Of a DNA stretch of 18,173 nt, positions 12,773-18,173 are shown in pieces; positions within the stretch are counted from its first letter, which is position 1, and every line of letters begins with the position of its first letter. The translations under genes and the position numbers were made by a program. The stretch lies in NCBI GenBank assembly GCA_001873285.1, contig MNYV01000082.1:1-18173 (forward strand), written 5' to 3'. Under the pieces are notes generated by a model. That model did not search any database. It was not told the DNA's origin and worked only from the letters and a program-made list of their open reading frames with translations. Origin of the DNA: Nitrospirae bacterium CG2_30_53_67 (GTDB taxonomy: Bacteria > CG2-30-53-67).

Positions 12773-14857
12773 CTACCCTAAAGGAAACTTGAGAACAAAC
12801 TGGCTCCCCCTGTTGGGTATGCTGCTTACCTCTATGTCTCCGCCATGGGCCTCCATGATGGTTTTGCACTGGTAAAGACCGATCCCAAGCCCTTTCTTCT
12901 TGGTAGAGATAAAAGGCTTGAAGAGCCGGCTTCTTATAAACTCTTCGGTCATTCCTATTCCATTGTCCAGAAATTCAACATGGACGCACCCATTCTTCGA
13001 ATATGAAGAGACCTCAATCCTTCCCCTTCCTGCAGGAAGGGATTGAATAGCATTCAGCGTCAAATTTACAAGGACTTTCTTGACATACTCGGCGTCAGCC
13101 TGAATCTGCGGGAGGTCGTTTAAATCCGTTAAAATTTCAAGCCCCTTGATGCTTCCCGCCTTGGTGCTTTCCAAGACTTCCGTAATCAGCCGGTTGATGT
13201 GGACTGGGTTTTTCTTTATCTCCAGCTTTTTGGGAAGTGTGGAGAGCTTTTCAATGAGTTCCTTCATCTTATCCACGGTGTTCAGCAGCGTGGAGAGGAG
13301 ATCCTTTTGAAATTCCGGTTTATCCATGTTTTGCTCGGCATTTTGGAGAACAAGTGAGATGGAGGAGACCAGATTTTTCATATCATGAACCAGGAATGAG
13401 GAGATCTTATGAAAGGATTCCGTCTCTTTGGTGACCGCCACCTCCTCTATCCATTTTGCGCTGGCAATAGCGCCGGCAGCCTGATGGGCAATGATCTTCA
13501 GGAGTTCATAATCCTCTTCGGAATAATCTCCTCCATTCATCACGCCACTTAAAGTGATCATCCCCTCAAGCTGATCACCCGTTCGCAGGGGGACTACCAT
13601 GGCAATCTTAAAGCGCTTAAAGAAATCTTCGTGGCGGCTGAGAATATTCTGGACATCAGGATCTTTGGACTCGAGAGGTTCCGAGTGGTGCAGTAAATAT
13701 TGAACCAAAGGGGATTCTTCCCGCAGCAATTCAGCTTTTTTAGGGAGATTCCTGCTCTTGCTAAAACAAAGATCGCCGCTTCGTTCATTATACAGCCATA
13801 TGGAGACCTGATTGACCCAGAGCGTCTCGGTAATCATCTCGATGATTTTGAGAAGAAGATTCGGAAGGTCATGAGCTTCGCTGATCTTCCGGGTGAACTC
13901 ATTCCATTCCAGACGATAGTCATACTTGTAACGGTAGAAATGAACATTGACAAAACGTTTTAATCTTTTTTGCAGATTTGAGGAGAGAAGAAAAACGGCG
14001 AGAAGAATCAAGGTGAATGATACGAATGTTGCGGTCAGGAGCAGATCCCAACGGCCTCCGATACTTCTGACCAGATAGCCCAGAATACCGATCACCAGAA
14101 GGTAAAGTCCAACTCCAAAGGCCGCAACCGAGGTATAGACCACGTGACGGGAAACAAAGATATCCACCTTCAGCAAGCGGTGCCGGATCACGGCAAATGA
14201 GATCATTCCCCAGCAGATCGCATAGACAACGAATCCTGCCAGCAGGAGATCCAGGTGGATCGAATGGTAGAGCAGAAGGATGCTCCCCAAAAAGAGCGAA
14301 TAGAGGCTGCCGGATGTAATACCCAGCAAAAGGAACTTCAGCCTTTCTCTCTGGATCCCATGGATGGCACGATACGTCTGCTCCATCTGCAGGAAAATAA
14401 CCAAAAGGCTCAGGATCAGGTAGACACTGAAGGCGGCGCCGACAGGGCCGAAGAGAATGATCCATTTGCCCGAGACCAGACTGATTGCTTGAAGAAAGCC
14501 CGGATTGAATGCATATAAGGAGAATAAAATGCCGGCAAAACTCACAGCGGGAACGGCCACTTTTTTAAATCCCCTGAAAAATGGGAACGGCATCTGAATG
14601 TGGTGAAAGGAGAAGAGAACAACGAGGATGGGATTCAGTGAGGCGAAGACCAGAGATCCTCTCAGATAGACCATGTCAATTCCGGAAGGAAGCCATCGCA
14701 AAGCCATGAAGAACGAGAATGCCATGAGGCTTTGCAAGATAGCCGCTCCGCCCAGGGCATAAGCTGCCGTCTTCTTTCTGCTCCGGGTCAGGAGGAGGAT
14801 CCCGACGGCCAAAGAGACTATGGCCAGGATGCTTGAAAGCAAGGAATAGATATTCAT
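12773..14857 (-). CDS. prsK: PrsK-like membrane histidine kinase (PEP-CTERM/exosortase system sensor)
   Basis: 694 residues, the typical PrsK length. The N-terminal third (about 1-295) contains eight or nine hydrophobic helices. A GAF-like domain spans about 330-470 (NQVSIWLYNERSGDL, VVPLRTGDQLEGMITLSG). The kinase core has an H-box with LVHDMKN (His491), N-box NLTLNAIQS (598-606), G1 DNGIGM (631-636), F-box LFKPFIST (645-652), G2 GLGIGL (656-661) and a C-terminal GSQFVLKFP. The membrane-GAF-kinase order, the HDMKN phosphoacceptor box and the C-terminus match PrsK of the exosortase/PEP-CTERM system, which controls exopolysaccharide-linked surface genes through the sigma54 regulator PrsR. No prsR, exosortase or PEP-CTERM target is in the window. 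The Shine-Dalgarno is weak. Confidence 0.85.
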   Translation of the reverse strand: MNIYSLLSSILAIVSLAVGILLLTRSRKKTAAYALGGAAILQSLMAFSFFMALRWLPSGIDMVYLRGSLVFASLNPILVVLFSFHHIQMPFPFFRGFKKVAVPAVSFAGILFSLYAFNPGFLQAISLVSGKWIILFGPVGAAFSVYLILSLLVIFLQMEQTYRAIHGIQRERLKFLLLGITSGSLYSLFLGSILLLYHSIHLDLLLAGFVVYAICWGMISFAVIRHRLLKVDIFVSRHVVYTSVAAFGVGLYLLVIGILGYLVRSIGGRWDLLLTATFVSFTLILLAVFLLSSNLQKRLKRFVNVHFYRYKYDYRLEWNEFTRKISEAHDLPNLLLKIIEMITETLWVNQVSIWLYNERSGDLCFSKSRNLPKKAELLREESPLVQYLLHHSEPLESKDPDVQNILSRHEDFFKRFKIAMVVPLRTGDQLEGMITLSGVMNGGDYSEEDYELLKIIAHQAAGAIASAKWIEEVAVTKETESFHKISSFLVHDMKNLVSSISLVLQNAEQNMDKPEFQKDLLSTLLNTVDKMKELIEKLSTLPKKLEIKKNPVHINRLITEVLESTKAGSIKGLEILTDLNDLPQIQADAEYVKKVLVNLTLNAIQSLPAGRGRIEVSSYSKNGCVHVEFLDNGIGMTEEFIRSRLFKPFISTKKKGLGIGLYQCKTIMEAHGGDIEVSSIPNRGSQFVLKFPLG

Positions 14858-14974: not shown

Positions 14975-17845
14975 TTATCCCTTTCTCGTCCGTCTCAATA
15001 CCAAGAGGATGAATGGGGGGATGAAGAGAAGGAATCCATCCGGGATACTCCCGTGGTTTTGTGAAACTCGGCATCCGCCGCCGCCACCACCGCCGCCGGA
15101 ACCGGCTGCCGGACTATCGGCGGGCGCGCTTATGGCCTCCTCCGGCTCCGAGATAAAGCCGGGGTCCTCGATGATGCCGTTTGCGATGTGGTCTGTATCA
15201 CCCACACCGCCATCGGCCAGGGTAAATGACATGATATTTCCGGAAACCATGGCATCCACCTGAGTATAACCGATGTTCGGATCGTACTTCCAATACTGGG
15301 AATTCTTTTTAAAATTCCGGCCAATGATGACCTGCACGGTTACCGTTTCACCGACATTGATATCTCTCAGCTTGAACTGCAGGCCGCCATATCTTAATGG
15401 CACCGAAGGTTTCCACCTCTCCGTTAAGATGGCATCAGGGATAAACGCCGCATCCGTGATACGGCAGCCGTTTCTACCGACCTTCAAGGCCATCTTCCCG
15501 ATCTTCCCGACAAAGGAAGCGATGGTCTCATCCTTCCTGTCGGGTATTCCATTCCCATCCATATCTTCTCTTGACTCTTCAATGTCCGGGATCCCGTCAT
15601 TATCCGAGTCAGGATCCAGGGCATTGATGATCCCGTCTTCATCCGTATCTTCCGGGCTATTCATGTTTCCAATCTCTTCCGAGTCAGTAATGCCGTCCTG
15701 ATCACTGTCGGTGAGATTCGGGTTCAGTCCAATACTCGTCTCCTGTATATTCGTGAATCCGTCTCCGTCCTGGTCACCGAGCGGCCCATCCGTATCATCT
15801 TGATCAATATAGTTGGGAGCGCCGTCTCCATCAACATCTCCCATTCCTTCATCTTTATCAGAATGGCCGTCATTATCCGAATCGGTATCCAGGGCGTCGA
15901 TGATCCCGTCTCCATCCGAATCAAGCGGCCATGGAAGTGATCCGAATTCTGTTCCGTCATCCATCCCGTCACCATCAGAGTCCGCAAGGTTGGGATTCAT
16001 CATATAGGTGACCTCGGTCGAATTATTGATCCCGTCTTCGTCCTGATCACCGAGCGGCCCATCACTATCGTCTTTATCGATATAGTTTAGAGCGCCGTCG
16101 CCGTCAACATCTCCTGCCCCTTCAATACTGTCGGCTTTCCCGTCATTATCCGAGTCGAGGTCCAGGGCATCGATGATCCCGTCTCCATCCGTGTCCAGAG
16201 GAGTCAAGAGAGATCCCCACTCTACAAAATCGGAGATCCCGTCCCCATCCGAATCTGCTGACTGCGGATTGAGGCCATATTTGATTTCAAGCTCATCCGT
16301 CAGACCATCGTTGTCGGCATCCTGGGTGGAAGAAGGATTGGCCACACTGATGGTTATGGCTGAACTCGCCTGTGCTCCGCCGTTATCCGTCACGGTCAAC
16401 GTTGCCGTGTAGGTACCGGCGGCGCTGTAGGTGTGAGACGGGTTCGTGCTCGTAGATGTCGAGCCGTCGCCAAAATTCCAGCTATAGGAAACAATCGTCC
16501 CGTCACTGTCCGAGGCCGAGGCTGTAAAGCTTACGGCCAGCGGGGCCGTGCCGCTTGAGGGCGAAGCCGCGATGGATGCCGTGGGGGCCTGGTTCGGCGC
16601 AGAGACCACGATCTGTTTCGTGGCCGAGCCCGTGGCCCCGCTGTTATCTGTGACCGTAAGGGTTACGGTGAAGGTCCCGGGGGAGTCAAAAATATGTGAG
16701 GGATTTTGAATATTTGCGCTTGACCCGTCCCCAAAGTTCCATGTATAATTTGTAACCGTTCCATCAGTATCGGCGCCGGTACCACTAAAGCTGACCGAAA
16801 GGGGCGCAATCCCTTCGGTCGGCGTGGCGCCGATTGCCGCCGTGGGCGGCACATTTGTCGGCGGAGGCGCCGCCTCGACCACCACCAATACCGTATCCGG
16901 ATTGCTCTGCAACTTGCCATCGCTGACCACGAGCTGAAAACCCAGGGTCTGTCCCGAAACAGCCGTTGTTACCGAGAAGAAGGGGGTGGCCGTAGTCCCT
17001 CCCATCAGGTTCACGAAGGAACCTTGCGTTTGTGTCCAGGAGAAAGTCAACGCATTGCCGTCCGGGTCCGAACTTGAAGAACCGTTCAGGGTTACCTGGA
17101 CGCTCCCTTGGGACAATTGTGATTGGGTCACGCTCATATCCGGCCCGGCATTGGCTGTCGGAGCATGGTTCACTGAAGGCGGAGGAGAGACCACAACGAT
17201 TTGAACACTGTTCAGGCCGGTTGCTCCTCCATCGTCAGTAACGGTAAGAGTGGCCGTGTAGTTTCCAACTGAACCATAGGTGTGCGTGGTATTTTGTGAT
17301 GACGAATTTGATCCGTCTCCAAATGACCATGAATAGCTCGATACCGTTCCATCAGTATCGGCGCCGGCGCCACTAAAGCTGACCGAAAGGGGCGCAATCC
17401 CTTCGGTCGGCGTGGCGCCGATTGCCGCCGTAGGCGGGCTGTTGCCTACAGGATCAACCGCCGTAATCTCATTCGAATACCCGCTTTCATTAGAACTCGT
17501 ATCATAGGCAGTTACCGCAATATAATACGTCGTCCCCGTGGTCAGGCCGGAGAGGGCAAATGCCGGGTTTGAGGGGTCGGCAAGCGATGATACGGGTACG
17601 GTGATCGGCGAGTCGCCTTGTGCCAGGCCCGCACCGTCGTAAGGCGCTCCGGATTGATCCGTGTCATAGTAGATCTTATACCCGGCAAGGTCCGTGCACG
17701 GCGTCCCGTCCGCATTCGTTGTGGAAGGCTGCCAGGCCAAGGTAATCGAGGCCTCCGCCCTATTTGTTCCAGCAGAGATAATAATAAAGAAAAAAAGTGC
17801 GAAGATCCCTTTGGCCAACCCATCTCTTAATGCAATATGTTTCAT
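14975..17845 (-). CDS. Large secreted surface protein: FN3, PKD, Ca-binding repeats, choice-of-anchor-U-like domain, Gly-Cys-TM sorting tail
   Basis: 956 residues from ATG 17845; upstream in-frame starts lie inside the riboswitch, and AGGGGAAG (17857-17850) precedes this ATG. A signal peptide ends at AEA (30-32). Domains follow in order: fibronectin type III (33-131), PKD (136-220; YSWSFGDGS), an Ig-like/REJ-type domain (226-325), PKD (332-415), PKD (420-502), then acidic thrombospondin type 3-like Ca-binding repeats (505-772; DSDGDGI pattern). Next comes a domain at about 780-895 with QYWKYDP and FTLADGGVGDTD...ANGIIEDPG, as in choice-of-anchor U proteins. The tail is eight Gly (917-924), Cys925, a hydrophobic helix (about 934-950) and RRTRKG. 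An adhesin or matrix protein is inferred. It is under a cyclic-dinucleotide riboswitch and ends in its own terminator. Confidence 0.88.
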   Translation of the reverse strand: MKHIALRDGLAKGIFALFFFIIISAGTNRAEASITLAWQPSTTNADGTPCTDLAGYKIYYDTDQSGAPYDGAGLAQGDSPITVPVSSLADPSNPAFALSGLTTGTTYYIAVTAYDTSSNESGYSNEITAVDPVGNSPPTAAIGATPTEGIAPLSVSFSGAGADTDGTVSSYSWSFGDGSNSSSQNTTHTYGSVGNYTATLTVTDDGGATGLNSVQIVVVSPPPSVNHAPTANAGPDMSVTQSQLSQGSVQVTLNGSSSSDPDGNALTFSWTQTQGSFVNLMGGTTATPFFSVTTAVSGQTLGFQLVVSDGKLQSNPDTVLVVVEAAPPPTNVPPTAAIGATPTEGIAPLSVSFSGTGADTDGTVTNYTWNFGDGSSANIQNPSHIFDSPGTFTVTLTVTDNSGATGSATKQIVVSAPNQAPTASIAASPSSGTAPLAVSFTASASDSDGTIVSYSWNFGDGSTSTSTNPSHTYSAAGTYTATLTVTDNGGAQASSAITISVANPSSTQDADNDGLTDELEIKYGLNPQSADSDGDGISDFVEWGSLLTPLDTDGDGIIDALDLDSDNDGKADSIEGAGDVDGDGALNYIDKDDSDGPLGDQDEDGINNSTEVTYMMNPNLADSDGDGMDDGTEFGSLPWPLDSDGDGIIDALDTDSDNDGHSDKDEGMGDVDGDGAPNYIDQDDTDGPLGDQDGDGFTNIQETSIGLNPNLTDSDQDGITDSEEIGNMNSPEDTDEDGIINALDPDSDNDGIPDIEESREDMDGNGIPDRKDETIASFVGKIGKMALKVGRNGCRITDAAFIPDAILTERWKPSVPLRYGGLQFKLRDINVGETVTVQVIIGRNFKKNSQYWKYDPNIGYTQVDAMVSGNIMSFTLADGGVGDTDHIANGIIEDPGFISEPEEAISAPADSPAAGSGGGGGGGGCRVSQNHGSIPDGFLLFIPPFILLVLRRTRKG
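15530..15706 (-). repeat. Partial third copy of the 91-residue Ca-binding super-repeat
   Basis: Residues 714-772 of the secreted protein, beginning SDQDGITD and diverging towards the end (DMDGNGIPD). It keeps register with the two full units for about 45 residues, including the DEDGIINALDPDSDNDG segment. Confidence 0.75.
15707..15979 (-). repeat. Second full 91-residue Ca-binding super-repeat
   Basis: Residues 623-713, from SDGDGMDD to NPNLTD. It contains DSDGDGIIDALDTDSDNDG, GDVDGDGAPNYIDQDD and DGPLGDQDGDG, each matched at the same offset in the first unit. Confidence 0.85.
15980..16252 (-). repeat. First full 91-residue Ca-binding super-repeat
   Basis: Residues 532-622, from SDGDGISD to NPNLAD. 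Asp-rich loops DTDGDGIIDALDLDSDNDG, GDVDGDGALNYIDKDD and DGPLGDQDEDG alternate with short Glu-containing helices, the layout of thrombospondin type 3 / EF-loop-like calcium sites. Confidence 0.85.
16755..16849. repeat. 95-bp near-identical repeat, copy in second PKD domain
   Basis: Encodes the start of the PKD domain beginning near residue 333 (PPTAAIGATPTEG through DTDGTV). It matches 17343-17437 at all but three positions by eye, two of them in one GGTACC/GGCGCC change. Confidence 0.9.
17343..17437. repeat. 95-bp near-identical repeat, copy in first PKD domain
   Basis: Encodes the start of the PKD domain beginning near residue 137. The partner is 16755-16849; flanking PKD sequence is much less alike, so the match is a local patch and not whole-domain identity. 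Confidence 0.9.
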
Positions 17846-17862
17846 AATACTTCCCCTAAAAT

Positions 17863-17898
17863 AAAAAAGCCGCCAAGAAGGATGATTCCTCTGGCGGC
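17863..17898 (-). terminator. Intrinsic terminator of the riboswitch expression platform
   Basis: On the minus strand GCCGCCAGAGGA (17898-17887) pairs with TCCTTCTTGGCGGC (17882-17869), leaving a 4-nt loop, a small A/TT internal mismatch and then six T (17868-17863). The T run ends 6 nt before the Shine-Dalgarno of the secreted protein. Its 5' arm contains the P1 3' strand of the aptamer (17893-17887), so terminator and bound aptamer cannot form together. Confidence 0.9.
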
Positions 17899-18035
17899 CC
17901 GGCTGACATGAAATACAGTGTCGGTGATCCGTGATCAGTGCCAGTAAAATCACGGACACTTAATCACTCACACTGTTTCTGACGTCCCGTAACTCTGCGT
18001 CCCACGGTTTCCCGTGGTTTGCTCTGAGCAAAGGA
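17887..18035 (-). promoter_or_regulatory. GEMM-I cyclic-dinucleotide riboswitch (c-di-GMP or cGAMP type)
   Basis: Read on the minus strand, the aptamer has the GEMM hallmarks: GCAAACC (18022-18016), a 6-bp hairpin CCACGG-GAAA-CCGTGG (18017-18002) with the conserved GAAA tetraloop, then GGGACGCAGAG (18003-17993), where the family has GGGACGCAAAG. The 3' side AGCCGGGCCGCC (17904-17893 or so) matches the family AGCCGGGxxGCC. P1 forms from TCCTTTG (18035-18029) and CAGAGGA (17893-17887). The A equivalent to A47 is at 17996. The base equivalent to Vc2 G20 is A (18023). P3 is extended by about 82 nt (17986-17905). P1 shares its 3' strand with the terminator, predicting ligand-dependent antitermination of the secreted-protein gene. 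Confidence 0.87.
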
Positions 18036-18078: not shown

Positions 18079-18084
18079 TGGGGC

Positions 18085-18123
18085 AAATAAAAAACCCATC
18101 ACACCGCGAAAGGCATGATGGGT
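18085..18123 (-). terminator. Rho-independent terminator of an upstream minus-strand unit
   Basis: On the minus strand ACCCATCA (18123-18116) pairs with TGATGGGT (18101-18094); the interior TGCC/GGTG can extend the stem to 12 bp. Six T then follow (18094-18089). It would end a transcript coming from beyond the right edge and insulate the riboswitch unit. No gene of that unit can be identified in the remaining 50 nt. Confidence 0.75.
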
Positions 18124-18173
18124 AAAAAATTCCAAGGCGTATGTGCGCCTAAATTTTCCACCACTTCGGGATG

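Follow-up and report, generated by a model that had tools for sequence, protein, structure and literature searches.

A probable GEMM-Ib riboswitch in a predicted tandem leader of an FN3/PKD surface-protein gene of Nitrospirae bacterium CG2_30_53_67

A transcriptional ON riboswitch on the GEMM-I scaffold probably controls the gene of an exported protein near the end of the window, i.e. the whole 18,173-nt stretch of DNA analyzed here (contig MNYV01000082.1, assembly GCA_001873285.1). As judged from its sequence, the riboswitch belongs to the GEMM-Ib subtype (A20), most likely senses 3′,3′-cGAMP and would be the second of two stages in a tandem leader. By themselves, the aptamer and its ON platform are of a known kind and ordinary. 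The first stage is an upstream element, further called U. More tentatively, and with somewhat less than even confidence, the two are read as a two-input gate in series: a divergent GEMM variant missed by Rfam would act as an OFF switch, perhaps for c-di-GMP, ahead of a GEMM-Ib ON switch for cGAMP. The protein would then be made only at high cGAMP and low levels of the first ligand, and one scaffold would have been duplicated and diverged to opposite logic.

The whole window was searched with all 4227 Rfam families, resulting in a single gathering-level RNA match, to RF01051 (c-di-GMP-I/GEMM-I) at 18033-17890 on the minus strand (44.7 bits against a gathering score of 35, E 4.8e-6). The GEMM riboswitch claimed in the preliminary description was thus confirmed by the model search proposed there as a check. 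Besides the score, the P1/P2/P3 fold of GEMM-I is present. Using a register (Vc2 numbering) taken from published structures, the A20-type aptamer was placed at 17887-18035 (−), supported by covariation in relatives. P1 is formed by UCCUUUG (18035-18029) and CAGAGGA (17893-17887), followed by J1/2 (18028-18023) and P2 (18022-17997), all on the minus strand; the pocket bases 20, 47 and 92 correspond to A18023, A17996 and C17894. According to the RF01051 alignment and the fold, P3 is extended by a 63-nt insertion (17914-17976, −), predicted to form a long hairpin. This insertion was considered as a mobile or repeated element and rejected as such, since it is single copy in the genome and differs in length and sequence among relatives; it is a hypervariable P3 extension. 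The folded leader is more stable than shuffled sequence (z −5.2), none of 200 shuffles being as stable. A palindrome, UUUGCU-CAG-AGCAAA (18018-18032, −), is identical in 10 copies from six family genomes. The hairpin that it can form would compete with P1 and J1/2 and is a possible ligand-free state of the A20 aptamer; computed energies of the hairpin and P1 states lie at most 5 kcal/mol apart, with a sign that is inconsistent among members.

Directly before the gene, an intrinsic terminator spans 17858-17899 (−; stem 17899-17868, U run 17868-17858). It was identified by folding (13 bp, −19.6 kcal/mol) and is conserved in relatives. All seven nucleotides of the P1 3′ strand CAGAGGA lie within the 5′ arm of its stem, exactly at the position described earlier (17893-17887), and, also as described, the T run stops just before the Shine-Dalgarno-like sequence AGGGGAAG (17857-17850). 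Because the P1 3′ strand is wholly contained in the terminator arm, P1 and terminator are mutually exclusive, making the platform an ON switch by architecture. In the pilM cGAMP riboswitch of Geobacter, aptamer and terminator folds are likewise mutually exclusive and ligand turns expression on (PMC9262584). Without ligand, the nascent RNA would fold GGCCGCCAGAGGA into the terminator, halting transcription ahead of the FN3/PKD gene. Ligand binding would make the aptamer close P1 with CAGAGGA, block the terminator and allow transcription of the gene. The ligand-ON behavior proposed in the preliminary description thus finds support in the sequence, its sign being a prediction. It does not account fully for gene control, since the aptamer forms the second half of a tandem leader; its ligand alone may not suffice to switch on the gene, as readthrough of an upstream terminator would be needed as well.

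The target gene (14975-17845, −) encodes a 956-aa exported protein starting at ATG 17845, preceded by the Shine-Dalgarno-like sequence given above. A GTG start at 17959, returned by the ORF finder, was discarded as a mechanical extension reading through the aptamer; the ATG with its Shine-Dalgarno sequence was preferred. The protein contains an FN3-like domain (Pfam fn3, 24.8 bits, just below the cut-off of 25), PKD and calcium-type repeats and a choice-of-anchor U domain, and ends in a Gly-rich, hydrophobic and basic tail. The PKD/Ca-repeat nature noted earlier therefore stands as a sequence-based assignment, while the term "giant" does not suit a protein of this length. We infer a role in adhesion or matrix. 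At 117 nt downstream, on the same strand, lies a gene for a GAF-domain histidine kinase (12773-14857).

The same aptamer was found in 10 copies in six family genomes, with near-invariant CUUUGCUCAGAGCAAACC, GCAGAG and CGCCA, and in four additional genomes (G294, G396, G397 and G401). A 15-member alignment was made from which the variable distal P3 had been removed by hand. In this alignment, 97.3% of the P1/P2 cells are paired and 18 cells carry two-sided changes, a value reached by none of 500 shuffles. P2 accounts for most of the covariation; P1 hardly varies and shows a single two-sided change. The terminator stem contains all or most of the P1 3′ strand in each of the 12 members folded, including those from Nitrospirae metagenome-assembled genomes (MAGs). 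The downstream gene encodes an exported protein starting with an FN3-like domain in 10 of the 14 readable members (assigned partly by eye), pointing to a repeated association of such aptamers with FN3 surface proteins. L194 (G389:C141), one of these 14 members, has the same architecture before a similar FN3 protein and carries G20, a naturally occurring single-base substitution at the specificity site. As to the host itself, the nearest named matches of its HflX-like GTPase are from Nitrospirae and Desulfuromonadales MAGs, with at most 59% identity. Only two compared genera of the host family lie outside its own genus and the class adds one more, indicating an uncultured, sparsely sampled lineage.

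Regarding the ligand, the preliminary description left the choice between c-di-GMP and cGAMP. Its cyclic-dinucleotide GEMM-I class held, and the choice was refined, as A20 predicts cGAMP over c-di-GMP. Published structures show that one ligand base is read by the nucleotide immediately 5′ of the outer P2 pair (G20 in Vc2; A14 in the cGAMP riboswitch of Geobacter), and that A47 and C92 (A41 and C75 in the Geobacter riboswitch) complete the ligand site. The window aptamer combines A20 with the equivalents of A47 and C92, which is the GEMM-Ib sequence pattern. Since A20 is typical of cGAMP (GEMM-Ib) riboswitches, cGAMP is more likely than c-di-GMP to be the ligand. In Geobacter, natural A20 aptamers show a ~1200- to 1600-fold preference for cGAMP (PMC6456294, PMC8835794), and A20 is fixed in the subfamily of the window aptamer, while both other GEMMs of the host genome (L001 and L002) carry G20. 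These points, together with the Hypr enzyme described below, make it unlikely that we are dealing with a plain c-di-GMP ON switch or a dual-responsive one, in which A20 alone would be insufficient for cGAMP selectivity. This alternative draws on the A20 aptamer of Desulfobacca, which gained cGAMP affinity and mostly retained c-di-GMP binding, its affinity for the latter being little reduced (PMC9481103), on the presence of at least 13 mostly canonical GGDEF domains in the host genome, and on the G20 of L194 despite its shared architecture. We favor cGAMP because the A20 pocket base and a Hypr enzyme occur in the same genome.

That enzyme combines GAF and GGDEF domains and carries the Hypr signature GHLVGS...RYGGDEF. 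Among PDB entries it best matches 6d9m, a T4-lysozyme fusion of G. metallireducens GacA (PMC6456294), and the serine is aligned. The protein is therefore predicted to be a GacA-like Hypr, cGAMP-making enzyme. Four of five family relatives have orthologs with the same serine, as do many MAGs of Nitrospirae and Desulfuromonadales. A Hypr enzyme is encoded by 12 of 14 genomes with an A20 aptamer versus 4 of 9 without (one-sided Fisher p 0.05; 23 genomes, relatedness uncontrolled, aptamers classed from the loci fetched). Two genomes with A20 aptamers (G004 and G294) lacked a Hypr enzyme among the GGDEF domains checked.

Reading of the leaders of the two G20 GEMMs of the host revealed P1 3′ strands outside the terminator, able to pair with its 5′ arm; both look like OFF arrangements. 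L001 (725-804, G000:C76) precedes a subtilisin-like protease gene, and the Hypr GGDEF gene is located on the same contig. L002 (1501-1572, G000:C35:27215-27286), together with L307, L308 and L313, represents a conserved GEMM in which P2 is very short and the GNRA loop is absent (GGCGACCCGTCACGGGGAGC). It is mostly found directly before a gene for an FAD oxidoreductase resembling sulfide:quinone reductase (by eye), and several copies were missed by the RF01051 search.

In several relatives, the DNA immediately preceding the second GEMM aligns with the last 128 nt of the window. There, the element U (CCACCGAUAAAGGCAGCC..GGUCGCAGAGUUGUGAGGCC..GGUCGGUCAUAACCUCCCGAAGUGG) carries its own terminator and precedes the second GEMM. 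U fails the Rfam gathering score for the c-di-GMP-I family: RF03167 gave 21.1-22.6 bits in two of seven loci (gathering 59), the other loci giving no match at E 1. In an alignment of U, 97.4% of cells are paired, against 31-50% when slid, and seven pairs show two-sided changes, mostly in P2. A model built from U only retrieved eight strong copies (99-113 bits), all within the host family, followed by ordinary GEMMs (at most 47 bits, E ~1e-13), which makes U kin to the GEMM-I scaffold. When 30 genomes outside the family were searched with the model, no match exceeded 49 bits. A second GEMM comes directly after U in seven of the eight copies and is of the A20 subfamily in six. Two arrangements differ. 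In L050 (489-810, G001:C144), U is followed by an ON-type GEMM that has G20 in place of A20; if U senses c-di-GMP, this locus would place OFF and ON switches for one ligand in series. G001:C126 (L054, L265) has two adjacent FN3 genes, the first with U as its only leader switch and the second with an A20 GEMM alone.

Only the last 16 nt of U and its terminator remain in the window, as the contig end cuts the element. This remnant (18158-18173, −), consisting of J1/3 and the P1 3′ strand GUGGU (18164-18160), was identified by DNA alignment to the 3′ end of U in G001:C144, G001:C126 and G004:C19; the U model alone misses it. Neither a second full U nor the missing 5′ half on another contig was found in the host genome. 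The terminator, conserved after U in relatives, occupies 18084-18123 (−), with its stem at 18123-18094 and a U-rich tail to 18084. A possible antiterminator (18119-18164, −) pairs 18164-18151 with 18133-18119 and comprises the P1 3′ strand and the first terminator bases (−11.3 kcal/mol, p 0.003 versus shuffles). In relatives this pairing is mostly present, weaker and singly non-significant, and L075 favors another partner. As the P1 3′ strand of U lies outside its terminator, U is not an ON switch of the downstream type; as the strand can pair with the 5′ flank of the terminator, ligand binding is predicted to favor termination. An OFF switch is accordingly the somewhat favored reading of U. 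Its ligand is put at c-di-GMP with about even confidence, base 20 always being G and the A47- and C92-type bases being kept. Against c-di-GMP speak the G20 ON-type partner in G001:C144 and the departures of U from GEMM-I in the P2 internal loop, P3 and J1/3. These same departures, the Rfam scores of at most 22.6 bits and the weak antiterminator pairing in several relatives would also suit a decayed GEMM with a constitutive terminator, merely lowering basal expression. We consider such decay rather doubtful: across three genera, U has retained pocket-type bases and the GNRA loop, and its P1 and P2 show covariation, indicating that it is maintained. It is also the sole leader switch of the first FN3 gene in G001:C126.

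The sequence TTGACA occurs at near-fixed distance upstream of U in relatives. The interval separating U from the second aptamer has no promoter-like site that outscores shuffles, either in relatives or in the window, and no sigma-70-like promoter was found at the window end. Tandem order and promoter position fit one transcript through U and the second aptamer (U being incomplete in the window), and we infer transcription through U in the host genome as well. In the proposed mechanism, the transcript would start upstream at U, whose own terminator comes before the second aptamer; readthrough of that terminator is probably controlled by U, and the output would equal NOT(ligand of U) AND cGAMP. 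Should both elements sense the same ligand with opposite signs, the leader would act as a band-pass instead of a two-ligand gate, as the pairing of U with a G20 ON-type GEMM in G001:C144 might suggest. This is improbable, as in all six full pairs of the subfamily the second aptamer has A20 and U has G at base 20. If the two-ligand gate is true, these bacteria would read the balance of two closely related second messengers directly in a surface-protein transcript while it is being made, helping to explain how c-di-GMP and cGAMP are kept separate in cells with many canonical GGDEF proteins and one Hypr enzyme. The range of predicted cGAMP signaling would also grow from Geobacter to include an uncultured lineage and groundwater MAGs of Nitrospirae.

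Among known systems, the window leader resembles the Geobacter cGAMP riboswitches (pilM, GSU1761/pgcA), with which it shares the GEMM-I fold, A20, a P1 3′ strand shared with the terminator, a ligand-ON layout and a Hypr GGDEF in the genome. It differs from these in its lineage, its FN3/PKD target, the invariant CUCAGA junction with the palindrome, the long P3 insertion and the preceding U. With c-di-GMP-I riboswitches (RF01051, RF03167), it has the scaffold, the P2/P3 core and the GNRA loop in common, whereas its second aptamer has A20 instead of G20 and U scores far below the gathering thresholds. A GEMM before a gene for an FNIII surface protein, KN400_1971, is already described in G. sulfurreducens (PMC13194489), so that the link between GEMM and FN3 is not new; the likeness, by description and not by sequence, lies in the position upstream of an FN3 surface-protein gene, and no U-type tandem is described there. 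NOT A AND B tandems, such as the AdoCbl/c-AMP-GMP tandem of Desulfobacca (PMC9481103), similarly place an OFF-type before an ON-type switch, each with a terminator; here, unlike there, both switches would share the GEMM-I scaffold. A GEMM-GEMM pair of opposite predicted signs is absent from the gate table of the same paper (PMC9481103), and the new part would be the OFF-then-ON cyclic-dinucleotide tandem, with the ligand and sign of U as predicted above.
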